A stretch of DNA of 64,000 nucleotides. Source: Marchantia polymorpha subsp. ruderalis (Eukaryota > Streptophyta > Marchantiopsida > Marchantiales > Marchantiaceae). Below are positions 1,624-56,190 of the stretch, in pieces (position 1 is the first letter of the stretch; each line of letters starts with the position of its first letter). A program made the position numbers and the translations under genes. The notes under the pieces are model-generated. The model had not been told where the DNA came from, did not search any database, and was given only the letters and a program-made list of their open reading frames with translations. The DNA lies in NCBI GenBank assembly GCA_037833965.1, contig AP031354.1, positions 2,086,001-2,150,000 of the forward strand, written 5' to 3'.

Positions 1624-2550
1624 CTAGGACTGCGTTGACGAGCTCTGCAGCTGCTCCTCATCGGCAGTGACTTTGGAGCTGTAGAAGGGAAATTCGAAGA
1701 GGAAGACTTGCTTGAACCAGAGAGGCAAATTCCCATACACTGCAGGGGGCAGAGGGATCAGAATGCTGGTGACCTTCTTGTACTGGCGATAGTTGGCATT
1801 GCTCATGTAGCGTTTGTCGGCCGAGGACTCCAGCAAAGGAATGCCGCTGAGGAAGAGGAGAATGCAGGACAGTAAGATGGGGCCGGCCACCACAGCCCAT
1901 CGTCCCTTGTCCAGCACGGGGGTGGAAGCTACGAAAATACCCCACCACAGCAACATCTCGCCGAAGTAGTTCGGATGTCGAGACCAGCTCCAGAGGCCGG
2001 CGTCGCACCATTTTCCCTTATTTTGCGGATCATTTTTGAATGTCAACTTACTCTGATCTGCCACCGCCTCGACGATTACTCCCACCGCGAACATCACCCA
2101 TCCCACAATGTCCTGCGCCTGGATCCCAGGGTTCCTGCCGCTCGAGTTCACTATCGTCACAGGCAAACTCACTGTCCACACCCAAATCGCCTGGAAAACC
2201 CAGAACAGGGCGAACTTGCACAGATTGTTGCGCTTGTCATCAAATCGCTTGTCCTCGCCCCAGTTCAGAATCCTCAACAGGAGGAAGAGTCCTAACCGCA
2301 GCCCCCACACTAGCACGAACGTCGTCAAAACCACCTGCCGGAAATAATAAGCGCCTCGAAGAACGAAGGTCAAAATCGCGAGGACGACGAAATTGGTCGT
2401 CCCCGCGAAATCTGTGACCTTGTCGAACTTGAAGCCTGCAGCTACCACGAAGAACAAGAATTGGTACAGGACAGTAACACAAGCAGTTATAGTGAGGAAA
2501 ACAGCATCCCTAACTCCAGGGTGTGAACCCGGCCAGTCCCGGCCGGCCAT
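1624..2550 (-). CDS. DUF1295 / steroid 5-alpha-reductase-like integral membrane protein
   Basis: A single uninterrupted frame of 308 residues. The protein is strongly hydrophobic, with likely membrane spans near residues 15-40, 51-66, 75-93, 112-134, 147-163 and 217-240. The family signature WSRHPNYFGE lies at residues 189-198, preceded by the characteristic EAVADQSK (161-168) and followed by LLWWGIF. This is the C-terminal fold shared by DUF1295 proteins, steroid 5-alpha reductases and isoprenylcysteine methyltransferases, in which the Arg-His-Pro-Asn-Tyr segment binds the nicotinamide cofactor. The expected role is a membrane-bound, probably NADPH-dependent reductase. The substrate is unknown. 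The length fits plant and bacterial relatives of about 300 residues. The ATG at 2550 gives the full N-terminus, and the upstream flank is CT-rich. The C-terminal tail (KVTADEEQLQSSSTQS) is hydrophilic. Lack of introns is unusual beside the intron-rich genes nearby and could reflect retroposition or ancient transfer. Confidence 0.9.
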   Translation of the reverse strand: MAGRDWPGSHPGVRDAVFLTITACVTVLYQFLFFVVAAGFKFDKVTDFAGTTNFVVLAILTFVLRGAYYFRQVVLTTFVLVWGLRLGLFLLLRILNWGEDKRFDDKRNNLCKFALFWVFQAIWVWTVSLPVTIVNSSGRNPGIQAQDIVGWVMFAVGVIVEAVADQSKLTFKNDPQNKGKWCDAGLWSWSRHPNYFGEMLLWWGIFVASTPVLDKGRWAVVAGPILLSCILLFLSGIPLLESSADKRYMSNANYRQYKKVTSILIPLPPAVYGNLPLWFKQVFLFEFPFYSSKVTADEEQLQSSSTQS

Positions 2551-5500
2551 CGCTGCACAAGGACCCGAGGTGCGCCGAAATGTTGCGACAGCTCAAAATG
2601 TCGAGCCCAAAGATGGTGTGCCAAACTCCCGCTTCAAATGCAAGAAGCCTGTCTGTCTGTCTTCTCTCTCTCTCTACCTCCCTCCCTCCCCACCGACCGA
2701 CTTACCGAGCGACCGCCCCTCGCGAGACAAATGCCGACGAAGATCTGAGACCTAGAATTACGGATTTGGTTCAGAGATGATCATAAAGTTCATACGTGCA
2801 AATCTCTTCCTCGCGTCTCCAACGATCGCACGAAGTGCATAGTATTTACAGCTTCGGGAGCAGACTGAGTTCCAGAGTCCAGGTAATCGAGCCTTGTTGG
2901 CCACACGGACGCCACTACTTCTTGCAGCTGAGCCTCGTTCACGTACACCCGATGGGCCAGCATGGACTCTAGGCTACACAAGCGGCCATGAATGCCAGAA
3001 TGATTTCTGATGGTGAGCAGCCATGAGCTTGCTTCATCTGAGGTACAACTCGTCTTTCTCGGCGACTGCAGACGTTGAAAGTGTTCTCATTCGCCACGGG
3101 GCTGAGTTCCAGTTTGTTTGTAGCAGTGCTCTGGCACGATCAGAGTAAAAGCGTTGGCAAAATCTGAAGTCAGATTTAGCTTACGTAGACTTCCGATTAA
3201 ATGATTCATCCAACTTCTGTTATAACATCAGGTTCATGATGGTGTCAGTGTCAAGATACCACCGAAGACAATTGGGATGCATTGTTGACCATGTAAGACG
3301 CGAGTCAAGATTTCAATGATCAAGAACAAGAATGTTAATGAGAGGAACTGCCATATTCAGGATGAGTATTTTAGCAGAAACATAAGAGTATATATAGGTG
3401 TAGGCTTGTGTGCGTGACATATTATCCATAAACTTCCCATAGAGCAATTGAGAAGGTATGAATGTAAGTGTTATGAGATCATAGGTTCCCCAATTCTCTC
3501 AATTCCTTACATTAAAATCTTACTGATTTTAATACTTGGTCAATACAAGTGCAATCATTTTACAGTTCATTTCAGAACGCTTCTAACCAACGAGCAATCA
3601 AAACAAAACACGTTCTGTTTTGATTTGCATATAATAGATTGATTCTTAGATTAATTCTTATAAGTCTACTTGTTATCCATGTAAATTCCAAAACATAATA
3701 TTTTTCCAGACATATAACATCACTGTTTGAAGTGATGTGAAAATATAAGATATTTATATATTACTTGAAGAAGGGTTCAAGTTCCAATGTTTATGCTTGA
3801 GTTTCTAGTGATTTCTCTATCTCGACACAGGATTAGTTTCCCTAAAACTTTGATCTGTATGGTTGAGGTTGATTAGATGTTCATTACTGCTAATATTTGA
3901 CTGATCTCTGATCTTTATCTCAATTGTAACCTGCAGTTGCAATTGCTGTAAAATTAAAATTGATTCACTTCAACTTTAAATGTAATTATGCAGACCTATC
4001 TTGAACAAGTGGCTATCAGCTCAATCCTTTCGACGTGGGGAAAGGACATGGAAATGCAGAAGACAAAGGACACGAGTATCACCCCAAAACGTGGAAACGA
4101 TACATCAACTCATAATGTATGAATTCAGTCTGATCGATGAAGGCTTACATCAAAACTTTGAGGAAGTTTCTTGCTTCAAATTCCTCCTTTTTGTTAATGA
4201 TATAAAATTTTAAAAAAACTTCACATCATTTGAAAAGGCCGCATGTGATATTACATACTTAATTGCTACCCTTGGGGGAACTATAATCTCATCACACTTA
4301 TATATGTGATATTTTTTCATATATATATATATATATATATAACTATTGATGTAATGAGTCGACTTTCATTAGTTTAATTTTATGAAGAAGAAAGAAACCT
4401 CGGTATGAATAAATTGTGATGAGATCTGAAAATGTCAAAATAGATTAGTTCTTCATTGTAGGGTCTTATGTAATATTCAGACCACATACGAAATCATTCA
4501 ACGGAGGACTCTGTATATCCAGATTAACATTGAGTACGTGCTGTTGAGTAGTGCTCACATTCTTTAAAAGGTAACCGTGGTTCTTAAAGACACACTTATT
4601 GCAAAAACTAAGAACTGTTTCAGAAAAAACATTGGAAGGGTGGCGGTCACTTTGGCGGTCTCACACTATTCCAATATCAAATGTGTTTAATGTACTACCA
4701 TGAGCTCATGAGTGGTGAAATATCCGCGCGCGAAAGGACCAGACCATTTATAGTTCAACTTGAAAATTGTGAATCTCAATTCTCCTTGGGTAACTTATAT
4801 TGGGACATTGGCACAATGGTAATAGCTGGATGGTACTGAATGAGACCGAAGTTGTCTCCACGACAGCACTCTGCTCTAATTCAGTATTGCAATGTATTGG
4901 TGTTTTCGTTCTAAGTTCTGATTTTCTCCGAGTTTGACAGAAACTTAAAAATTGCGAGACTCGAACACAAAAACTTCTATGTTGTGTGTGCAGTATAAAA
5001 CCCCTGCACTAATTTCTGCCCGTAAGTTCAATGTAACGTGTACTGTCGGGGCAAATGAAGGGAAAGCACAGAATATTGTTTAGATTTGCGTGAAAATTCA
5101 ACGAGTTATGTGTGAGCTTATTGTCATTGAATAAGTGAGTGACAAACGATCTTCATTTGGTAGAGAGGTTTTATCAAACACTATGTTGCTGAGCACTGGA
5201 GACCAAGAGCAAGGTTGATGCATTGGGTAAATCTTGCCTTCAGACTTCTTATAGAAAATGACGGCTGCCTTAAGGTGTACACCTTCTTCTATACAACTGA
5301 AGTAATGATAGATAAGATCATCTGCTGTTGGAACTTACCAACATGTTACATACCCCGATCAACAGTCCCAGGTGGCGTTTTGGATTCCACCAGGGGCCGA
5401 TACTTCTTGGTCTTTGACCCAGATGCACCAGTCCGCTACCTGGTAAGGATAGAAGTCTTGATCTGTAACACTGATAAATGGTAATAGATCGAGCCCGGGG

Positions 5501-38127: not shown

Positions 38128-40931
38128 CTAACAAGGTTGGAAGTGTTTGGATATTTGATCTGGACTACATTTCTGTCCAGGGGTTAGTGATAGCTTCAAA
38201 ACTGCTCCAGGCACTTGCCAACTTTGGCTGGCTGATGGATGCAACATGCCAACCAAAAGTTCCACTCCATCGACAAGTTTTGGACCCGGGTAACTGAAGT
38301 AAATATGCTCGCAAATATACACGCGTCCGGCTTCGACAGCTGGAAGAGACCAGAAGCCTGAAAATTTGACAATCTTTTGTACCTGCATCAAGAAACCAAC
38401 ATTCAGTTGACCGCTGGTTAAAATTACGCAGATTGCCTGCTTTGGCAGTCGGACATGTACTACGCACAGAAAAATAAATTGAGCACGGTATCATTACGGC
38501 AACGAACCTCGGACAAAGTTTGCTCCGCACTAGGTGTAAGATGTGCGAAAATGAGAACCTCTGGTGCATAGTTTGTGATACGACGCCACAATAGAGTCTC
38601 TGCATTACAACCAGGCTTTTGAAGATCATCAAGCCCACCAGCTAGGCTTTCCATTTCCGGAACCCAATGTCCACCCATGATAAGAGGGTCTAGACTATGC
38701 AGAACAAGTACGCGGGGCCTATGTAACCTGGCAACCGCTACCGCAGCTTTTCGCAACCTTGACCTTAACCAGTCTGCCAATAAACACGCCTCATGATACA
38801 AGCCGACCCTGTCCCCTAGCTCCACAATCCCGGAGATCGCATCTGCGACCTGCACCACCGGTCACATGAATGAACATCGGGAGTCACAAAATTAACTTTT
38901 GAAATTGTCATCACAAACGGCGCCGATGTCTTCCAAAAAGGCTGGACTGTTGGCTGCAATACTGATACACGCGTTGATCGTACTGACAAAATCGTATATC
39001 GTACAGATCGTAAAGCTATCATCTATTGTCATGGGTAAAATGAAGACTATATGCTAGTACTGTGCATTATGGGGTCCAGGTTGAGGTTAAGTATATAATC
39101 CTTACAGTGTGGGGCCTCAGGATCATGATTTGAGTGTTCTTCCCACTTTGTAGCCCTGCCTGTGCCAGTATCCCAACTATTGACGTACTGCATGTATCAC
39201 CGTGTAGCGAAGAATCCTAATATATGGCATGAAAAGTTAGCAAGCATCAACTTGTATGATTAGCTCCAAGAAAGCGATTAGAATACAATTTCGTTCAGAA
39301 CCTCTCGAAGTTTTCTTGAACTTCAGAACTTGAATCCAACAACTCCAAGGTTCACCTGAATGATGATTAGATCGGGCTTTGCTTTACAGAGCCAGGAGAC
39401 ATCAAGTCTCATACTGCTTCCATTCCCAAGAGTTCCTACAGGTTTCTGCGAACGAGGAAGTTGGTTAAGTTTAAGAAGCCCTTGTAAAGTTGATATTGAT
39501 ACAGGTCAAAACGATTCTAACAAGTGCCAGTATGTACTTCATCGGCTCAAATGGATAATAGAGGAGTTAGCTTAATAACATGCTAAGTGCTCTGGCTGAT
39601 CAAACTGTTTTACATGCGAAGAATAAAACCACCATCAATTCACAATCGATTAACCCAACAATCTCCAAATAAAGCAGATATCTATGCATACAGCAAGGCC
39701 TCGGAAAACATCTCCTTCGGGAGCTGATACAAAGACAACGTCTGGCCCTAGGAACTTGATTGTACCGGTACTTCCACATACGTCTGCATTCTTGACCCAG
39801 GCTCCACCTTGGTACGACACACCTGAAAGCCCCAGCATATTTGAGACCACGCAAGTGGTCAGAGAGAAAAGAGTCATAGAAAATGAGGGAACTTAGCTTA
39901 CACATATCTCTCAGCAAAATCCTCAATTGTTGTACTATGTAGGGTACTTGGGGAATTCCTGTAAATATCGATCAGTAATCGTACAGACCAATTTGATGCT
40001 TAGAGACGTGTTCAGGCTGCACGGTACTTACATTGTAGAGTTCGTTCGAACATCCACTTGGCCTGACGCATGATTCTGTAACTCCTATTAACCTCTTCCC
40101 AGCACCTGTACAAATGTTATGGATGTCAAAACCATGTTTGTGCAAAACCTTTCTGTATGAAGAACAATGATGGTCCTAAGCAATCACGACTAAGTCAACT
40201 TCGCTTGCAAGATTTGGATCTCCGTGGCCTTACCTAGCTCATACAAAATTTCGGTTGCTGAAGGAGACAATGAAACGATCCTCTCAGGTAGAGCTCTTGA
40301 AGTAGGAGAACTTGACGAGAATCGACTACCCGATGGAACTTTTTCCAGATGTTTAGGAACTTCACCATTTACCAACCATCCAAAAGTTCTCCTGTTTGCA
40401 GTCAAAGGCGGCAAGTGTTTCCGATGGCCACCTTGAACTAAGTTATCTTTATCTAAATTCTTTTCTAAGCTATTTCCATGTCGTCCTCTAACATTGGAAT
40501 TAATGTCCTCAACATCATCACGAGAATTGTAAGCCTTTCCTGTTGTACTCGCAAAACCAGCTTTAGTTGAAACCCTCCTATTATAATCTTCACTCCTAGT
40601 AATTTCACCTCCTAATTTTGAATAAGAATTATTTTCCTGATCTAATTGTCCAACCCATATCTCTGATTCTGATCTCACCAGCCTGCCGTTATTTCTCCTC
40701 CCTTCGTAATGCTGCTTCATACTGCTTAAATCGAAGGATCCGGAACGACGCAAGAACAAGTCCGAATTATCACCCACACTTTGATACGGTATGAGACTCT
40801 TTGTTTCCCCCATTGCCTCTGCCACGGCCGCTGCTGCTGCTGCACCAGCTGCGGCAGCAGCTACAGGACCTGCTCCTGCAACTGCCGAAGCAGAGGCAGC
40901 AGCCACAGCTGCTGCTTTTGTTGAATCCATC
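38128..40931 (-). other. Ala-rich linker and BtuF-like binding domain (exons 9-15)
   Basis: Exon 9 encodes an Ala-rich run (about residues 470-508), then a polar Ser/Arg/Asn-rich linker, ending with [18 protein letters not shown], the hallmark opening of BtuF-like proteins. Later exons give [38 protein letters not shown], the central helix [74 protein letters not shown] and [20 protein letters not shown]. The fold is a two-lobed periplasmic binding protein with a bridging helix. The usual HECDYP corrinoid-side motif is replaced by TESCVRPSG, and the Cys-x-x-Cys after LTQ is altered (SSLHGDTC). Ligand preference may therefore have shifted. With no export signal the domain would be intracellular. 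Confidence 0.82.
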
Positions 40932-43900
40932 CTGTACGCACCACCAATAGGGCATAAGAAGAGCTCCGAGCTATCTGTAGTTTACGGCGATGATAGTTGG
41001 TTGGGGCGACCAAATGTGTGAGCGGTCAACAGTCTGAGAGAATAATATAATAGGAGATTCCAAGGAGCGCTTAGGAACAAGCAGTCCTGACAAACATTGG
41101 TTACGCTACCTGCTGTCCTAAAATACAGGTCACAGTGCACCCCTCTTTGGTTCAACAAGAGAAACAGAACGATGATAGCATTCTTGCAAGGTAGCCACAC
41201 AACACGCTTGAACCCTACTTAATACTAGGAATGCCTGAACATGACTGATGCAAACTGCGTTCCAACCTGCAACGCTCCACAAACGACACAGCAGCAGCTG
41301 GGTTGCTGCCGAAATGTAGATGAACGAAGCTGGCCATAGTGTTGCCGTGCATGTATCCCTCGACGTCCTCCGCAGCCTTCCGGTACTCAGCTTTAGTGCA
41401 GAAACTGCTCAAGCACATTCAAACGTTGGGACACAGAAGAAAATCTAAAGGTTGGAGAACGTACGGAACATTCCATTCTCCTCCTGTAGGTACAGAGGTT
41501 TTGTTTACAGCGTGGAAATGTACTACTACAATCTCATGTCCGACATACTCTCTAATATGACGACATATTTTTTAAGCGTCTAATAACTTTATGACAGCGA
41601 CATCAAGCGCAGCTATCAAGCGACCAAAGAAATACGAGAGGGCACGGATGAGACGTACCCTTTCGGACACAAATTGATGGTGTTGCTATTTGCATAGAAC
41701 ATCTCGCTGAAGTGGAAGATTTGGCCACGTATTTCACCGATTGAAGCTGGAAAGAGCACACAATTGTCCTGAGGAGTGACCTGCAGGAACACACGAACAA
41801 AATACGTACGATAAGTATTTATCAGAGAGTAAGGTTTTCATACTAGAACATCCATACAAACATCTAGATCAGGTGTGAGAACCAAAATGAGCTAGGAGAC
41901 TTATGAAGAATGTGACTTGGTCAAGCTCTCTGACTTAGTGACATGGATACCGCCCTCATTTTCATTTTTCACGTTCCGAGTTCAAAGCGGCCTCCCCGTT
42001 GTCTGTCCAAATATCTTAAACTTGAAACACATACCGTGACATAGCCCATGTGCATCACAGGCTGCATACGTGTCCAAAAAGGAAAGACGCCACACATACT
42101 CCATTTGCGCTGTTCGTCATCCTGGTTGCAAATCAATAGACAATTCGTTCATACTTGACACAATAAACTCCTGATGAGTGAAAATAAATTTTCATACAAG
42201 CGAAAACAACAAGGAAATCACTTCTAACATTTTCTAACAACCATCGACAAGTGGGTGAGACGAATTTGAACTTCCAAAAGTGAGACAAACCGTACCTCGA
42301 TGCCCTGTGAAAGATACATCAGACCACCACATTCCGCAAATATCACACCTCCTGCGTTAGCAAATGCTCGTATTCCATACAATAACCTCTTATTGCTGCT
42401 AAGTTGTTCGAGGTGAAGCTCTGGATAACCACCTCCAAAGTAAATTCCATCCAGTCTGGGAGGTAATGTATCTCTCAGGGGAGAAAACTCGACAAGCTCT
42501 GATCCTGCATCTGTGATAAGATGTATGTTAGGATTTGCCTGACCACGTAGGAAAAATCAACTTCTGATTGAAATTCAGTTTGACTCTGAAGAATTGTAAC
42601 AACATTAGTAGTCGGACGAGAATGGAAATAGAATATAGCTTAGAAATTACTTTGAAGCAGTAGCAGATTCTCGTGGTAGTAGAAACAGAAAGCATCATCT
42701 CGCGCTACTCCGATGCGCACGGGCTTTGGATGAACCACTGAACTATTATAGAAGAGATCTAAAGATGGATTCCCCAGAATGTCGCCATGGACGGATTCCA
42801 AAGGAACAGCCTGCTCCAGGATGGAATCCAGATCGACGTGAGATTCTATCAGATCAGCGAGTCTTTGTATGTAGTTCACTGGCACTTCTTCATCCACAGG
42901 TGGATGTGCACCAAGATGCATTTCAGGGAGCTCAATTCCAGCAGACTTAGGAACCCCTCCGAGAACTCTTACATCAGGCTCCGTTGCCAAAATAGCTTCT
43001 GTCAACCAGGCTGTGTGAGAAGAACTTCCCACCTGCATCAGACAAAGAACTATCACTATCTAGAAAAAGAAGTAAACGTGTTAGTGTCAACAGATCGTCT
43101 GCCACTACGATTCCAAATCATATGGAGACAAATAGTTACTAAAGAAGCACACCGGTGCAACCAGTGAGAACACATGATAGAGTTTAGGGGCAAGCTTGGG
43201 GGGCTTTCAGAAGGTTGAGGAGTGGACTTTCTACATATAAGTTGTTCGTTTTCTAGGCCTTAGGTTCGTGAAGCACTTATCATCAAATGTACACCTCTTA
43301 ATCAGTGGAAGCTTTGCCTCCTCGTTTGAAAGTCGTAAGTCTGGTCTTTCCTCCTCTTTCAACTACGACAACCTTGGACAGTTGGCTACTTACAGAGTGT
43401 GAGAAGAAGGGCTCCTACGGGGATTAAGTTAGTTTAGTTGCTTTACCACATGATCCTGTGACACAGCATCCTCTCCATCTTGAATCGCCGACAATTCTGC
43501 GTATGGTTGTTTGAACTCTTGTAGCCTGTGTTCCTCGTTTCCCAGACAAATAAGCTCAATAAGCCTACAGGAGTAAGGCTAGAGCTATCACTTAAGCACC
43601 CTGGTCAAGAAGGTTAAGTATCAAGATCTCATTTTTGACCTACGCGGTAACGTATATTCGAAAAACTCTTCTTAGTCGACCCCCAAGAGACTAATTGTGG
43701 CTTGTCTTCCTGATTCACAGTTCCTGCCATGTTCATTGACTGGCTTGTCACATCTGGAATAGACTACGAGGGAGAAGCAGTTCCATTCACTACAACTTGT
43801 CAACATGAATCAGGCATCAGGGAAGTAAATAAATTACGAAGGAGCAGCTGAGTAAAACACCACATCCAAGTAAGGTCCGAGTGTTAGCGGCGTCATCCTG

Positions 43901-45918
43901 ATTAAAGAGAAAGTAATTTGATTTTGTTTATTTTATAAATAATCAGTGTTGGTGGTTGGACACCGACAAGCCACATTTTTTAATGATCACATGCAAAATT
44001 TGACGCTCAAGCGACTATCTATCCCAATTCTCCAAAAATTTGTTCGCAGACTTGTCCACGTATTTTGATAAAGCCAAGTCTAATTAAGAGGACAGTCTAC
44101 ATTTCTTTGAGGTTCATTCACTAATTGAATTACAGTTTACGTTCCTCTTCTTGAAGTAGGATTTCACCTTGTTAAGTAACACTCCCGCAAATTTGACATC
44201 AGGGTCGAATGAAGTGTATCCCCGAATCAGTGCAGCGGCACTTCTAGCAAGCTGCCAGCAATCAAGCACCAGCACTACAGGCGTACCTAGCAGCTTTGCC
44301 ATCTCTGCTGTGCTGCCCGAATCGGACTTTCCATCCCTCCCATCATACAGACCCATCACGCCCTCCACGATAGCAATATCCGTGAAAGGGGTGCATCGCA
44401 TGAAGCAGGCTAGATTCACTTCTCTGACAAGAAACATACCAAAGTGTGTCAGTAAAATGGGTAGGAAAATACGATAAAATCATAACCCTTAAAGATTACT
44501 CAGACTGCGAAGTTACATTGATTACCACGCAAGAAAGTGGAACACTCTTGCATGTATTCATAGAATGGAGAATTTCTTATTCCTTTGTACCTGCTAAGCA
44601 TCCAACCATCAAGGTTGTACGAGTCACGACCAGTTGCTGCCTTGTGATGCATGGGATCCAAAAAATCTGCACTTCCAAGACTCTTAAAGATCAGGAATCA
44701 TATAACACTGAATTACCGAAGATGAAAACAGTCTGAAACTAAAACTAATCGCCATGGCTACTCACTCATTGGATCAAATGAAGACGTCAACTTGCCTATA
44801 AAATAGTTCTTGTGAGAGCTGGAGCTCGAAACCCTATCAAGAATCGAAAAATTCTGTTACAGAGCAAGCCCAACAAGCGATCTTGGTTTGTCGATCACGA
44901 ATTACTAGGTCGGTTAAGCATCGAAGTCCAGTACTATTTGTAATTGATCTGGCGATTTTTTGAGGTTAAGACACCTATAGAGAGATTAAAGCGACGCGTG
45001 AAATTAACTACCTGAGCTCCGACAGATTTCAAATGAACCAACAACAAAGGAGAGATGAGAATGAAAATCGTTCAGACGCATGCTCTATGTTAATCCGGAT
45101 CTCGTGCTAATGGGATCTAATTGCCTGTTCATTAAACTAGTTTCATAAAGACAACCGCAGGACAATACAAGAGGTCGGCAATCATGGGAGTTCCATCCCT
45201 CTACCCGATATACATACATTCCTTCCTTCACCAACTTTTGGTTCGACCCAGGAGTTTCAAATTTCTGCTAGCTGAAGGGCATGTCTTTATGGAGCGATTT
45301 CAGATTACTGATCTTCGTGCAGTGTTATCAGAGTTTGAGGTCATCAATTCTAGAGTAAGTAAGTCAACCCTGTAAAAGGTAAGACGAAAAGGCTGGAGAA
45401 AGTAATAAAAAAAAGTATCCTTGTCGGAATCGTCTAAAAGGTGGAACTTCCCTCGCTTTGCGATTGGGAGTCATTTCGCAACCCAAATTATATTGGATTG
45501 TCGGGAGCAACTTGGGACTCTACCGGAGGCGAAATCGAAGGAACGTATTTACAGTTTCTACTAACGGAATTATTAATCAGATGAATCACTTGAGATTTAC
45601 GACCGAATGGTCCTATGTGTATCAGAATCTGAGTGATCTCAGAAACAAATGTTTCAGCGGCCTCAAAGCAGATCCCAATTGCAGGTAAATACCTTCCTTC
45701 TTACTTACGAATATTTCCCTTCCGGAAGGTAAATCTACGCAATCCTGCATGTGGCTAGCAATTTTCACTCTCCTATCTCCAGAGATGGGAAGCGCACCTG
45801 GTCCAACTTTGAAGGGCTGCACTCGCAGGCCACGGCGGCAGAAGGCAGCCATGAGTCCCACCGCAATGCTGGTCTTGCCAACACCGCTATTGGTTCCCGC
45901 CACCAGTATTGTCTTCAT
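38128..45918 (-). CDS. Cobyrinic acid a,c-diamide synthase fused to a BtuF-like cobalamin-binding domain
   Basis: Fifteen exons on the complement: 45918-45798, 44666-44591, 44423-44168, 43032-42651, 42510-42296, 42121-42035, 41780-41659, 41404-41267, 40931-40234, 40105-40032, 39822-39772, 39445-39356, 39216-39106, 38849-38508, 38382-38128. Every boundary is GT-AG and the phases close on 1005 residues plus stop. Residues 1-466 are CobB/CbiA, residues 467-680 a low-complexity linker and residues 681-1005 a BtuF-type binding domain. In bacteria the two activities belong to cobalamin synthesis and salvage. Here they are one polypeptide. No signal or transit peptide precedes the P-loop. The start is fixed by an in-frame TAG nine bases upstream, unless a further 5' exon is spliced in at that TAG. 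The exon 8/9 junction has an alternative in-frame solution (exon 8 to 41226, exon 9 from 40974) that adds 28 residues. Both solutions keep the fusion. Confidence 0.85.
41267..45918 (-). other. CobB/CbiA domain (exons 1-8)
   Basis: This half follows bacterial cobyrinate a,c-diamide synthase end to end. It opens with the P-loop [10 protein letters not shown] (residues 8-17) and [14 protein letters not shown] at the first splice junction. [20 protein letters not shown] (with [18 protein letters not shown]) and AGVLLNK follow. The bridging region has [15 protein letters not shown]. The class I glutamine amidotransferase part shows [20 protein letters not shown] with nucleophile Cys339, and [11 protein letters not shown] with the catalytic His at 448 or 450. 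The enzyme uses ATP and glutamine to amidate the a and c carboxylates of a corrin-type tetrapyrrole. The related CfbB does the same for Ni-sirohydrochlorin. All key residues are retained, so catalysis is plausible. What the substrate could be in a plant is unknown. Confidence 0.88.
44667..45797 (-). other. Intron 1 of the CobB-BtuF gene with 131-bp sequence shared with the copia element
   Basis: The first 131 bases of this intron (45667-45797, starting at the splice donor) match 53759-53889 inside the retrotransposon with about four mismatches. The words gcagatcccaattgcagg, ttcccttccggaaggtaaat and tgtggctagcaattttcac are identical. The frame through the shared piece is open in both places, so exon 1 would read on into it if unspliced. 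The rest of the intron is unique in the window. Confidence 0.88.
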
Positions 45919-48350
45919 TTTACCCTACGTTTCGCTAGGCAACCTCTGACAAGTTTATGTTATACACCGCCACCTGCGGACAAAAGGTCGCCAAAGTCGC
46001 TAATTCCATGACCTTTGATAGTGAAGTATCTGCCCTCCACCTACTGCCCGTCGGGCCAAATGTGCGATCGCGAGCTGGAGACTCCATGATTGCTGCCGAA
46101 CCATGGTTGAACCTCAGAAGTGAAACTACCTTCTCTACATCAAGAACAATCCTGCGTAATTGGAAATGGCCCTCCTAAAAGCACCATCCTTTCTTGTACA
46201 CCAAACTAATAGATCAGTCCACACACGAGAACCGACCCCACCGTGCTGGAGCTAGCCTTCGACTAGCTTATCAACCTGCAAACTCCGCTCAAGAGCTACT
46301 ATCCAGTCCAGGGCTCCCGCCAAGTCCGTAAGTGCGACTGCAAGGTGTGGAATTATGAGTCTCCTCCAGTGTCTCAAATTTCACCCGCAGCCCAATACAC
46401 TCAGAAGTTCAGGGTACGGTGGAAACAGAGATTCTGTCTGTTCCTGATGCTGAAGAATTCCACAATCCGCACCCAGTGATTCCTCAATTTGAATACAGAC
46501 GGTGAACCATTAAACAGGTCTTCTACGCAGTCTACGTGCAGCCATTTGCGCTGGTTGGTGCTGAAGTGAGCAGAATTACGCCGCAAACTTGCATACTAGA
46601 ACGCAATGTCTCTTCCCTGCCCACGAATTAGGGTGAACTCCTGCTTGTGACGGAAAAAGAGGTTGACGAGCCATTCCAGCTCACACGTCCATGACATATG
46701 CGAACCACAGCCGCGGCTCCAACGCATTCTGGTGGAAGACTCAGGAATACCGGGGAAAAAACTCAAGCCCCTGGCGGTAAGAGAGCACACAAAAACAGCA
46801 TCTTTGCGCCGAATCCGGCTGCTGTCACAGACCCTGCGTGTTGCTCCATCCCACCGACAGATTTCTCACTTCCTGAAAACTCACATCGAAAGCGTGGCTG
46901 CAGGCTTTCCTCCTCCGTCAGAAGGCGTGCGCAGAAACAGCTTCCCCTTTCTCCAGACACGAAAAGCTGATCCACGAGTTCCGTCTCCGCGCCACAGATA
47001 CAAATTACAGAAATCGCCCCACCGTCATCCCCTGGAGCCAAGAGAAGAACCAGTGCGCCGTCTCATCCTCGTACCGGGGCAAAATCAGTACGAGATTTCT
47101 CGAACAGTGGATCCACAGGCTTCATTCCACAATGCAAACCCAAACAAAACCAATTCCCCCGCCTACAACCAAACCGATAACGATCGAACCTAAACCCCGC
47201 GCTCAATCCTAGCACTCAAAGCTGTGCCACTCCGCGAAGCGACGAGACGGCACGCAAGATTGCGTCCCAGGCTACGCAGGCGGGGGGCGACCAGAGCAGA
47301 GCCTGGCGAGCTCGTTCCACGGAGAGCAAGCCGGGCAAGCTTCGAGCACATGGCTCCGCGGAACAGAGCGCAGGGCAAGTGTTCAGGGATCTGTGCAAGA
47401 AGATGCAGAGGTCGCGGTTGGGCGACAGAGCATGTTTCTTCTTCGGCTCTCGCGTCGCCGAGAGCGGGAGTCTCTCGCCCGAGCGCCAGGAGCATTTAAG
47501 GCCTCAAGTAAATACAAACCCGGCAAAAATAATTGCTGATTATTTCCAATTTCCACTCGTCGGCCGCTAAGTGGGGTAATGCAGCTTACGTCTGCTTAAC
47601 CCGCAGCTCATTGGCTGGTGGCGCCCTGCGGATCTATCAGCCAGAGGCAAACGGAAGCCCTTGCGAGTGTTGATGATGCTGAGGTGTCGGGCTTTCGACG
47701 GAGGTCCGGCCTTCCAGGTCTTTGCTTTTGGAGCTAGCTCCTCGCCCCGTCTCGGCTCGAGGCAGTCCAGAGGTTGCTACCTTTCGGATGAAATTCGTAG
47801 GTTCAGATTCGCGCTTGTGCAAGTTGTGCTCTGCCCTTCCTGGGGTGAAACAACTCTCGATTCTCTGGAATTGGTCTCCTCGGCACGTGAGAGAGGTTAG
47901 CTGACACTTGCAGCTGAATCCATCGCGAGTAGTATGACACCCTCGGTCCGGCCTCCGGATTCAGGAAGTTGGTCAATGTCAGTGGCAGAGGTAACTTTCC
48001 CTCGCCCGGCGGAAGCAGTTGTTATAATCCCGGGGTTTCGGCCGGTCAGCTTTCGTGGGTCAGGTTGAGCCAAAAATCCTCGAACGTGGTTCTTCTGTCT
48101 CTGAGATCCCTGCTCAGTGCTTTCAGGCGTCCCTCACATTCTCGGTCGGTTATCAATCTTCAGCTGATCTACCCCATTTCTAGGAACCTGTTTACCATAT
48201 CTACACCTCGAGAGTCTGGTCTTCGTTGATCGATCTGGCAGTGGCACGCAATTCCGGGTAGATGCGTCGCTTACCTCGTCCGCCAGTCGGGGCTCTTAAG
48301 TCGATTGTTTGGAGGGCTGCTTTTTTTAGTGTCCAACTCTCTCTAATTTA
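45919..48350. promoter_or_regulatory. GC-rich 5' flank of the CobB-BtuF gene
   Basis: From about 46.6 to 48.3 kb the sequence is GC-rich, matching in character the islands upstream of the CDPK gene and at 25.6-27 kb. It lies on the 5' side of the minus-strand fusion gene and is the natural place for its promoter and any 5' UTR exon. Long frames on both strands (46663-47193 plus, 47190-47495 minus) overlap and lack any family signature. I regard them as chance frames in GC-rich DNA. Confidence 0.4.
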
Positions 48351-53734: not shown

Positions 53735-53908
53735 TATCAAATTTAGATGTAGTAGATTAGCAGATCCCAATTGCAGGTAAATACCTTCCTTCTTACTCAC
53801 GAATATTTCCCTTCCGGAAGGTAAATCTACGCAATCCTGCATGTGGCTAGCAATTTTCACTCTCCTATCTCCAGATATGAGAAGCGTACTAGCACGAAGC
53901 ACGAACAT
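53735..53908 (-). other. Extra segment inside the copia linker, matching CobB-BtuF intron 1
   Basis: The block 53759-53889 matches 45667-45797 with about four mismatches in 131. It is bracketed by direct repeats of about 25 bases: ggtgggaactatgaatcaag near 53713 and gatgggaactaggaatcaag near 53912. Removing the block plus one repeat restores normal spacing between integrase and RT. It therefore looks like an insertion or captured host fragment, not part of the ancestral element. Confidence 0.8.
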
Positions 53909-54134: not shown

Positions 54135-54790
54135 CTACTCTGGTGTTTTATCATGTACTGCTACAGTAGGGGTTCTATTCATAGGATAGATAGCATATGC
54201 GACAGCTTCTGCCCAATAACAGTTGGGCATGTGTTTCTCATTTAGCATGGCTCTTGCCACCTCTGCAATGTGGCGATTCTTCCTCTCTGCTTCACCATTC
54301 TGTTGAGGAGTATAGGGACATGTTACTTGCCTCTTGATACCTTGGTCTCTCAGAAATGTGTCGAATTCTTCTGAGAAGTATTCTCCTCCACCATCGGATC
54401 GAAGCTTGAAGATGTATTTCCCTGTTTGTTTCTCCGCCTGATTCTTGAAGTCCTTGAACGCTTTCAAGGCATCTGATTTGACCTTGAGAAAGTACATCCA
54501 TGTTTTCCTGAAGAATTCATCAATAAAGGACACAAAGTACAGGCACCCACCAAGACTAAGAGTTGAAGAAGTCCATAGATCTGTTTGGATGAGTTCTAAG
54601 ACCTTGAATGCTCTTGTCCTTGTATTGCTGAATGATTGTCTAGATTGTTTGCCAAATTGTCATGCTGCACATACTCTGGGAGGACTATGCTCACTAAAAC
54701 GTGGTAAACCTCTAACAAGATCAGAAAGGGGTAAATCTTTCAATCTCTGGAAGTTCATGTGGCATACTCTCTTAAGCCACACTTTTTATT
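54135..54790 (-). pseudogene. copia integrase, disrupted
   Basis: 54533-54135 encodes SFIDEFFRKTWMYFLK, RSDGGGEY (second catalytic Asp), CPYTPQQNGEAERKNRH (third catalytic Glu) and AVAYAIYPMNRTP. Upstream, in other frames to 54790, are HMNFQRLKDLP and LELIQTDLW (first catalytic Asp). Frameshifts separate the N-terminal zinc-binding part from the core. Confidence 0.88.
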
Positions 54791-56190
54791 CTGAGATTTT
54801 TGAACTCTGTTGTCCATACATAGCATTTTGTGTTTCAGGTATTGTTGCATTGAGCCTGAACATTCTTCCTACTTTGGTGCCTTGTGCAACTATCTCCATA
54901 TTACGATTCATATCTTCTATGAAGCATCCCGCTTTATTAAACCTTACTTGAAGGTCTTGTTCTACCATCTCTCCAACAGAAATGAGATTCTTCTTGATAC
55001 CAGGTACACACAACACATCTTTGATCGTTTGAACAAAATCAGGTTGTACTTGTACATGAATTTTACCCATGTGTGTGATCGAATGAGATGTGTCATCTCT
55101 TGTGATGACGATCCCTGATTGCTTAACAGGTTCCATGTTGGTGAACCATTCCTTGTGTGCTGTCATGTGGTTGGATCCTCCAGAATCGATGGACCACTCT
55201 TCTTCTGTCGATGCGGTACTCATGCTGCCCATGACATGACTCATGAAGAAGAGATGGTTTGAACGCTGTGGCTGCTCTGTTGTAACATATTTGGTATGTG
55301 ATAATACTCCACTCTTGATATCATTCTGCTTCTTAAAACAGTCCCTTGCAATGTGGCCTCTTATGCCACAATAGTTGCATTCTATTTGAGAATCTCCACG
55401 ACCTTGGAAGCCTCCTCTCTCACGAGAGCTTCCTCTACCATGAGCATTACCTTGCTGTTGCTCTTGTTGTGGCTGCGTTGTATTGTTTGTTGAAGGTGAT
55501 TGACCTCTCCCTTGCTGGCCAAAACGTCTGCTGTTGTAGCCTCCTCTAGAGAATCTACCTCGTACCCTACCTCTTCCTGCATAGAGTACATGTTTTGTTT
55601 TGCTAGAGGATAAAGTAGTTGCCAATTTTGATTCCTCATTCACAAGTAATGGAATGAGTTTCTGGAACGTGGAGAATGTGGGCAACACAGATATGGATGT
55701 TTCAAACTAACTATGCTCAGTTCCAAGTCCAATTAGCATGGTTAAGGCAAGGTCATCTTCACTTACCTTTTCATTTATGCTACTAAGCTGTTCTACCAAT
55801 CCTCTAATATGCAAAATGTAATCATTAATACTCAAGGACCCCTTCTTGACTTGCAATAGTTGTTTCTTTGATTGTAATCTATGAGCATTGTTGGCAGATT
55901 CATACACCTTTGCTAAACTATCCCATGCTTGTTTGGGTATATCTGCGGATTGAATGTGACCTAGATTAGCAGACGTAACAGAGATAGAGATACAATGGAA
56001 TGATTGGTTGGCTCTTCTATTCTAGGATTTCTGCTCGCTAAAGGTATCAAGTTTTGGTGGATCGACATCAGGCTCTGGTTCGTCTCCTGTGACTATATTC
56101 CAGAGATCTTGGCTCATGAGATTTTGTTTGACTCTAAACTTCCAGATAGGGTTGTTGTTTGCATCTAATTTTTTCCAGCGATTAGGGATA
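54786..56190 (-). pseudogene. copia gag and protease, disrupted
   Basis: The gag N-terminus (about 56190-56040) reads PIWKFRVKQNLMSQDLWN. A stop near 56030 interrupts it. 55907-55707 holds the capsid core (YILHIRGLVEQLSSINEK). The 300-residue frame 55688-54786 carries an Arg/Gly-rich RNA-binding stretch, the zinc knuckle CNYCGIRGHIARDC (about 55380-55340) and the protease site WSIDSGGSNHMTA, where DSGG replaces the usual DSGA/S. TIKDVLCVPGIKKNLISVG follows. A TGA-type break separates the 55907 and 55688 frames. Confidence 0.85.

Follow-up and report, generated by a model that had tools for sequence, protein, structure and literature searches.

A Marchantia polymorpha gene that joins a predicted CobB-like amidase to a BtuF-like domain

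Why should a liverwort genome carry an intact gene for one step of cobalamin synthesis, joined in frame to a domain of the BtuF family? The locus lies in a 64,000-nucleotide stretch of Marchantia polymorpha subsp. ruderalis DNA (hereafter, the window), from an assembly of 241 Mb in 9 contigs, and the original prediction took it as established that cobalamin is neither made nor needed by land plants. That premise is dated: passages of one report credit hornworts with METH and accessory proteins and liverworts with homologues of CblB/CblJ, and propose a B12 metabolism for the ancestor of land plants (PMC11439496), a proposal on which the present finding bears. The words cobyrin, CobB, and BtuF are absent from the main text of that report, a text search of PMC11096116 returned no B12 words, and among the matches listed, no article was noticed that deals with CobB in plants or with its fusion to BtuF. 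What calls for explanation is a lone, intact, and selected cobalamin-pathway step with a binding domain attached, searches of this genome having found none of the known B12-using enzymes. Either a land plant has kept some unknown form of corrinoid chemistry, or plants amidate another tetrapyrrole, and the product in this liverwort may be an amidated tetrapyrrole that is so far undescribed.

The gene runs along the minus strand from 45918 to 38128, and its 15 coding exons encode a protein of 1007 amino acids (Table 1). All 14 coding introns have GT-AG borders and consistent phases, and one additional intron is inferred in the 5'UTR. The protein is comprised of a CbiA/CobB domain (residues 1-466), a linker (467-677) that is Ala-rich at first and then polar, and a BtuF-like domain (678-1007), with exon 8 joining exon 9 in frame at Arg466-Met467. 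At a rate of 0.064 stops per codon, taken from two introns, the chance that 1007 random codons would stay open is ∼1e-29, a figure that ignores the choice of splice sites. Because an in-frame TAG lies 9 nt upstream of the ATG, the protein has no N-terminal targeting extension. The coordinates, strand, exon number, splice borders, and phases agree with the original prediction, as do the P-loop, Cys339, and the conserved His (His448).

Table 1. Exons of the fusion gene, in positions of the window, with the intron-less copies that cross their junctions.
Feature	Position	Strand	Remarks
Coding exon 1	45798..45918	-	ATG and P-loop (residues 8-17); junction 1|2 in L081
Exon with start codon, full extent	45798..45974	-	From copy L081; 5'UTR exon ending near 46242 spliced on
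Coding exon 2	44591..44666	-	Junction 2|3 in L081
Coding exon 3	44168..44423	-	Junction 3|4 in L081
Coding exon 4	42651..43032	-	Junction 4|5 in L011
Coding exon 5	42296..42510	-	GATase nucleophile Cys339
Coding exon 6	42035..42121	-	
Coding exon 7	41659..41780	-	Gln399 at near-invariant His position
Coding exon 8	41267..41404	-	End of CobB domain, His448
Coding exon 9	40234..40931	-	Ala-rich linker, then BtuF-like domain from residue 678; junction 9|10 in L079, L080
Coding exon 10	40032..40105	-	Junction 10|11 in L079, L080
Coding exon 11	39766..39822	-	57 nt; junctions 10|11 and 11|12 in L079, L080
Coding exon 12	39356..39445	-	Junction 11|12 in L079, L080
Coding exon 13	39106..39216	-	Junction 13|14 in L011, L079, L080
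Coding exon 14	38508..38849	-	
Coding exon 15 and stop	38128..38382	-	Junction 14|15: GT-AG, phase, and homology only

Four intron-less copies in the same assembly (L081, L011, L079, and L080) provide a record of spliced RNA, jointly crossing 13 of the 14 coding junctions. Past spliced RNA joined the CobB and BtuF halves: the processed copy L011 reads straight across junction 8|9, and the joining of these two exons in RNA, which had been singled out for checking, is thereby answered from the genome itself. Junction 14|15 is not covered by the copies, as L079 and L080 skip from CDS position 2764 to 2850. The copies are located on contigs C1 and C5, some on the gene's own contig and one old copy elsewhere. 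Together with the 33-Mb contig and the 14 coding introns, they exclude an assembly or contamination artefact, and these features, along with the inferred 5'UTR intron, uphold the earlier view of a settled host gene. The GC-rich flank that had also been cited for this view is weak evidence, far outweighed by that of the processed copies. The gene is real and nuclear.

The CobB half is conserved, as the original prediction held. It keeps 51 of 56 near-invariant residues, including the P-loop (G14, K15), Cys339, and His448, and differs at five such positions, H399Q among them. The match to the curated CobB models is full-length, at 472.5 bits for NF002204 (cut-off 254) and 418.2 bits for TIGR00379 (cut-off 261.4); a DsrN protein also exceeds these NCBIfam cut-offs, so they are not proof of substrate. 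In trees whose sampling was biased by the search patterns, the plant sequence groups with six bacterial CbiA sequences (support 98/92, and 98/99 in another tree), three of which (L012, L022, and L064) are shown among cob genes. Three DsrN-type sequences, a small sample of second copies, one of them beside dsrA, form their own 100/100 group apart from the plant. Across 12 columns that separate the CbiA and DsrN types, the plant is CbiA-like at 10 and DsrN-like at 1. The score against the model of CfbB (Ni-sirohydrochlorin a,c-diamide synthase) is 400.2 bits, below a cut-off of 560 that is strict (0 of 10 archaeal sequences reach it; best, 515), and the trees are without a certain CfbB. On these scores and trees, neither CfbB nor DsrN was retained as a label. 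A search of solved structures with the CobB half gave no match at the default limit. The plant half is thus like CbiA/CobB in its full-length scores above curated cut-offs, its P-loop, Cys, and His, and its place in the tree, and unlike it in being encoded by an intron-bearing gene of a 241-Mb genome, in its BtuF-like fusion, in H399Q, and in that CobQ and other B12 genes were not found in that genome.

The second half matches PF01497 at 50.4 bits (cut-off 27.5) over profile positions 1-232 of 235, and nearly the whole domain aligns to four prokaryotic proteins, relatives of BtuF or "cobalamin-binding protein," at 27-34% identity. It keeps 38 of the 69 columns that are invariant in these four relatives, and differs from them further in being fused to CobB in a genome where the importer permease was not found. 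When 19 genomes (of the 49 that carry CobB) and four plasmid records were searched for relatives, 13 of the 23 gave matches; the four plasmid records were strong, and the best genome match was 4.3e-9. A solved-structure search with the BtuF half of an early gene model listed seven sequences to E = 1 (best 1.6e-5), all as weak single stretches. The contrast drawn originally, between an in-frame fusion here and separate genes in bacteria, is matched in Deinococcus proteolyticus, where btuF-like, cobO, and cobB are consecutive genes. Among eukaryotes, passages on the algal protein CBA1 describe it as resembling BtuF structurally; by that description it stands alone as a protein, resembles BtuF little in sequence, and is required for B12 uptake (PMC10828217).

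Exon-wise profile searches of the plant's own genome for METH, MCM, CblB, the B12-binding domain, FecCD, and CobQ found none, and METE, the control, was found. The FecCD/BtuC importer permease gave no matches in this genome, whereas 13 of 14 control genomes did give matches. These absences are soft, because an exon-wise search can miss split genes, and the exon-wise PF01497 search missed even the BtuF half of the present gene. The CblB search was negative here, whereas CblB homologues are reported from liverworts in passages of an earlier study (PMC11439496).

Taken together, we consider it moderately probable (roughly 60%), on the sequence evidence, that the gene product is a tetrapyrrole a,c-diamide synthase of the cytosol that carries its own binding domain, both halves having been transcribed and at least the CobB half being under selection. 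One protein of 1007 residues would be made, in the cytosol because it lacks an N-terminal extension. Its N-terminal half would act as a CbiA-type synthetase and glutamine amidotransferase, in which two carboxylates of the tetrapyrrole would be activated with ATP and then amidated, Cys339 being the site at which glutamine would give up the ammonia. By sequence, the C-terminal half belongs to the periplasmic-binding-protein family of BtuF. Tethered by a linker that is presumably flexible, it probably holds the same tetrapyrrole or its product, and would serve to capture, deliver, or sense this ligand and not to form part of an importer. As to the substrate, the tree favors a corrinoid, and the failure to find the other searched B12 genes favors a plant tetrapyrrole. 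More tentatively, a tetrapyrrole a,c-diamide synthase with a built-in ligand-binding or sensor domain may be a dedicated enzyme of some land plants, and its amidated product, corrinoid-derived or native, would have a function apart from those of the known B12 enzymes.

Plants make siroheme-type tetrapyrroles, and the gene could amidate siroheme, sirohydrochlorin, or another such native compound, doing DsrN- or CfbB-like work from CbiA descent. The position of the plant outside the DsrN-type group, its DsrN-like state at a single separating column, and its shortfall against the CfbB model all weigh against this, and siroheme is synthesized in plastids, whereas this protein lacks an N-terminal extension. 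We regard native amidation as somewhat unlikely, even given that none of the other searched B12 genes was found and that, according to parts of one source, the tetrapyrrole-amidase family to which CbiA/CobB belongs amidates siroheme (through DsrN) and the F430 cofactor (through CfbB) in prokaryotes (PMC10504309).

The original prediction raised the idea of corrinoid salvage, in which the BtuF half would bind microbial corrinoids and the CobB half would amidate cobyrinate-type precursors. Corrinoid capture by the BtuF half is so far not supported, given its divergence from the invariant columns and given that FecCD and B12-dependent enzymes were not found. CobB acts ahead of several further cobalamin steps, and these would then be missing. 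CobQ, CblB, METH, MCM, the B12-binding domain, and the FecCD permease are all among the (soft) absences. Salvage is unlikely in our judgment, its best arguments being the grouping of the plant CobB half with bacterial CbiA, half of these shown among cob genes, the adjoining btuF-like, cobO, and cobB genes of a bacterium, and the B12-related genes that passages of one report describe from bryophytes (PMC11439496).

The gene could also be a decaying relic without present function, as the diverged BtuF half and a synonymous excess against the copies that is modest or absent might suggest. The gene differs from the old and decayed copy L081 at 20 conserved codons; in 19 of these it carries the residue seen in prokaryotes, whereas L081 does so in none, and this 19:0 polarity argues for purifying selection on the CobB half. 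Against copies of the BtuF half there was no clear selection signal: compared with L079, the gene keeps 4, the copy keeps 1, and neither keeps 4, and compared with L080 the counts are 1, 0, and 4. With 1007 open codons, intact splice sites, and nearly all near-invariant CobB residues in place, a relic is very unlikely.

That two genes were misread as one, with CobB ending in the intron after exon 8 and BtuF starting at the in-frame ATG that opens exon 9, is hardly credible and mostly refuted by L011: readthrough past exon 8 does meet a stop 16 codons after Arg466, but the 335-nt gap between exons 8 and 9 is a GT-AG intron, and the RNA that gave rise to L011 joined the two exons, which share one frame in the gene.

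The copies also corrected the exon model. An early version (exon 10 running to 40028, exon 11 from 39822 to 39692) and a putative exon at 39958-39904 were both rejected, since the copies splice from 40032 to 39822 and from 39766 to 39445. With exons 10 and 11 placed as in the copies (40105-40032 and 39822-39766), identity to Embleya, the best prokaryotic relative, rose from 30.5% to 34.1%. A further sequence, L082 on contig C7, resembled the processed copies at first but was left out of the count: its 5'UTR intron is retained, and its 5' flank runs into a piece of exon 9.

The CobB-BtuF fusion is a genuine fused gene. The window corresponds to C5:2086001-2150000 of a 241 Mb, nine-contig assembly; in it, the gene's 15 coding exons, whose GT-AG borders and consistent phases agree with the original prediction, yield a 1007-codon open frame. 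Residues 1-466 match the cobyrinate a,c-diamide synthase model NF002204 at near full length (472.5 bits, cut-off 254) as well as TIGR00379 (418.2 bits, cut-off 261.4), and contain the Pfam domains CbiA and GATase_3; residues 678-1007 match Peripla_BP_2 (50.4 bits, cut-off 27.5). The linker between the halves, Ala-rich first and polar after, returned no match in a Pfam search. Because an in-frame TAG precedes the ATG in the same exon, the gene encodes no targeting extension. The best reading of the protein is a predicted a,c-diamide synthase that would act on a tetrapyrrole and carries a binding domain on a tether.

A domain search of the genome placed GATase_3 at the fusion gene and one other locus, a decayed, intron-less copy of the gene (L011); as the domain was found nowhere else, this search yields no CobQ. 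In the alignment (94-95% identity), L011 has junctions 4|5, 5|6, 6|7, 7|8, and 8|9 joined as predicted, with one substitution next to 7|8 and two small deletions inside exon 8. The proposed fusion, for which RNA across exons 8 and 9 had been the suggested check, is thus supported by a processed copy whose source RNA had these exons joined. Further copies were obtained by DNA search of the genome, and L081, L011, L079, and L080 combined cross 13 of the 14 coding junctions. Both L079 and L080 jump from CDS position 2764 to 2850, so that junction 14 is uncovered and the two are perhaps not independent. L081 includes 5'UTR with another intron spliced out, the join having a short overlap compatible with GT-AG. 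These spliced copies show that a single RNA of the fusion gene, carrying both halves, was once made and spliced in a heritable cell lineage; they bear on that past event, not on the present level or place of expression. An earlier model of exons 10 and 11 was in the wrong frame and is overruled by the splicing seen in the copies. The revised BtuF-half peptide aligns without the 27-column gap which that model imposed on relatives, and identity to the best relative (Embleya) rises from 30.5 to 34.1%.

L079, L080, and L011, processed pieces on the gene's own contig, are found inside a stretch of about 250 kb, and two of them share a deletion; they are perhaps a single insertion, later fragmented and duplicated. 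The old, decayed copy in L081 is about 81% identical across exons 1-4, and lies on a contig (C1) of only 5.6 Mb, which may be a sex chromosome. The locus L082 is a recent chimeric duplication of the gene's 5' flank, carrying window 47160-46878 and 46685-45999 unspliced at 98.6-98.8% identity and joined to an exon-9 fragment.

Coordinates of the fusion gene, its copies, and other features (own assembly, G000)
Feature	Position	Strand	Basis or coding junctions crossed
Fusion gene	window 45918 to 38128	-	
Coding exon 10	window 40105-40032	-	intron-less copies
Coding exon 11	window 39822-39766	-	intron-less copies
5'UTR intron	46238 joined to 45974		L081
Old processed copy in L081	G000:C1:4015841-4016368		junctions 1-3
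Processed copy L011	C5:4729001-4739000		junctions 4-8 and 13
Processed copies L079 and L080	C5:4484000-4489000 and C5:4537000-4546000		junctions 9-13
Chimeric piece, L082 1486-2555	G000:C7:8347985-8349054		
Intron 1 piece, copy	window 53759-53889 (C5:2139759-2139889)		
Retrotransposon fragment	window 54789-55706		
DUF1295 open frame	window 1624-2589	-	

The placement of the CobB half was analyzed in a tree of 57 rows (47 used of 49 prokaryote-genome loci, eight plasmid proteins, Trichlorobacter, and the plant row), a sample that is biased, since the search patterns were derived from the plant sequence, and that holds no certain CfbB. The plant row groups with six bacterial proteins (support 98/99), and the Alphaproteobacterial aerobic-type CobB rows fall outside this group. 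The three of these six that were examined have cob-gene surroundings: L012 has CobQ, CbiD, and CbiE/CbiT neighbors that exceed their cut-offs, plus a precorrin-8 methylmutase that falls short of its own, L022 neighbors CbiD and CbiE/CbiT, and L064 sits in an annotated cob operon. DsrN and CfbB, concerned with siroheme and F430, are also CbiA homologs, according to PMC10504309. The tree was enlarged with CobB-like proteins that occur as second copies in the same group of genomes, and one misread row was removed. One second copy, L124, is DsrN, because it adjoins dsrA; no dsr genes were seen among the tested neighbors of the other two. These three DsrN-type rows form their own 100/100 group, separate from the plant, whose group retains 98/92. 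Twelve columns tell these CbiA rows apart from the DsrN type; the plant sides with CbiA at 10 of them, with DsrN at one, and with neither at one. Against the NCBIfam model for cobyrinate synthase, whose cut-off is 254 bits, the protein beside dsrA (L124 1270-4633) reaches 421 bits, and this model therefore cannot separate siroheme amidases from CobB.

Of the 56 columns with 95% or higher conservation across 56 prokaryotic relatives, the CobB half retains 51, the changes being R189M, L193A, A282S, G354Q, and H399Q. L081 covers 65 codons for which conservation reaches at least 70%, and its residue differs from that of the gene at 20, where the prokaryotic residue is held by the gene in 19, by the copy in none, and by neither in one. 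L011 differs at one of 63 conserved sites, and the gene has the conserved residue. Whole-gene synonymous changes are in excess for L011 (23 observed, 13.1 expected) and L081 (32 and 23.0), with hardly any excess for L079 (16 and 13.5) and L080 (13 and 9.8). In the BtuF half, gene-to-copy polarity is 4:1 and 1:0 in two comparisons, each with four undecided. These counts thus give good support for selection on the CobB half, and do not show it for the BtuF half.

Four prokaryotic proteins, one of which carries the annotation cobalamin-binding protein, align with the BtuF half over almost its whole length. The half keeps 38 of the 69 columns invariant among these four, and has lost parts of the motifs HECDYP, C-x-V-C-A-V, PCG, and YFNRPGPR that most of the relatives share. 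An exon-wise domain search, which has limits, found no FecCD permease in the genome. Given the lost columns and this absence, the half resembles a binding domain put to a new use more than it does a subunit of an importer. Deinococcus proteolyticus, where btuF-like, cobO, and cobB genes are consecutive, offers a precedent for the partnership, although the genes are separate there and fused in the plant, in keeping with the earlier statement that these are separate proteins in bacteria. A BtuF match lay within the fetched flanks, often short, of one in 49 CobB loci (L012).

Exon-wise searches of the genome found no Met_synt_B12, B12-binding, MM_CoA_mutase, or Cob_adeno_trans domains; METE (Meth_synt_2), searched for as a control, was recovered in four exon matches. 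The Peripla_BP_2 search gave no match, though the fusion gene has that domain in pieces, so exon-wise searching has limits and these absences are indicative, not proof. PMC11439496 reports METH in hornworts and CblB/CblJ homologs in liverworts, and the empty Cob_adeno_trans/CblB search disagrees with the liverwort CblB homologs, if this genome is that of a liverwort. That paper's main text does not contain the terms cobyrin, CobB, or BtuF, and among the literature matches listed none was noticed to concern a CobB of plants or a CobB-BtuF fusion; algal CBA1 is compared with BtuF in PMC10828217.

Elsewhere in the window are a 97% identical copy of an intron 1 piece from just after exon 1, an open frame with Pol_BBD and a zinc knuckle that is a retrotransposon fragment, and a 321-aa open frame that matches DUF1295 strongly (279.7 bits).
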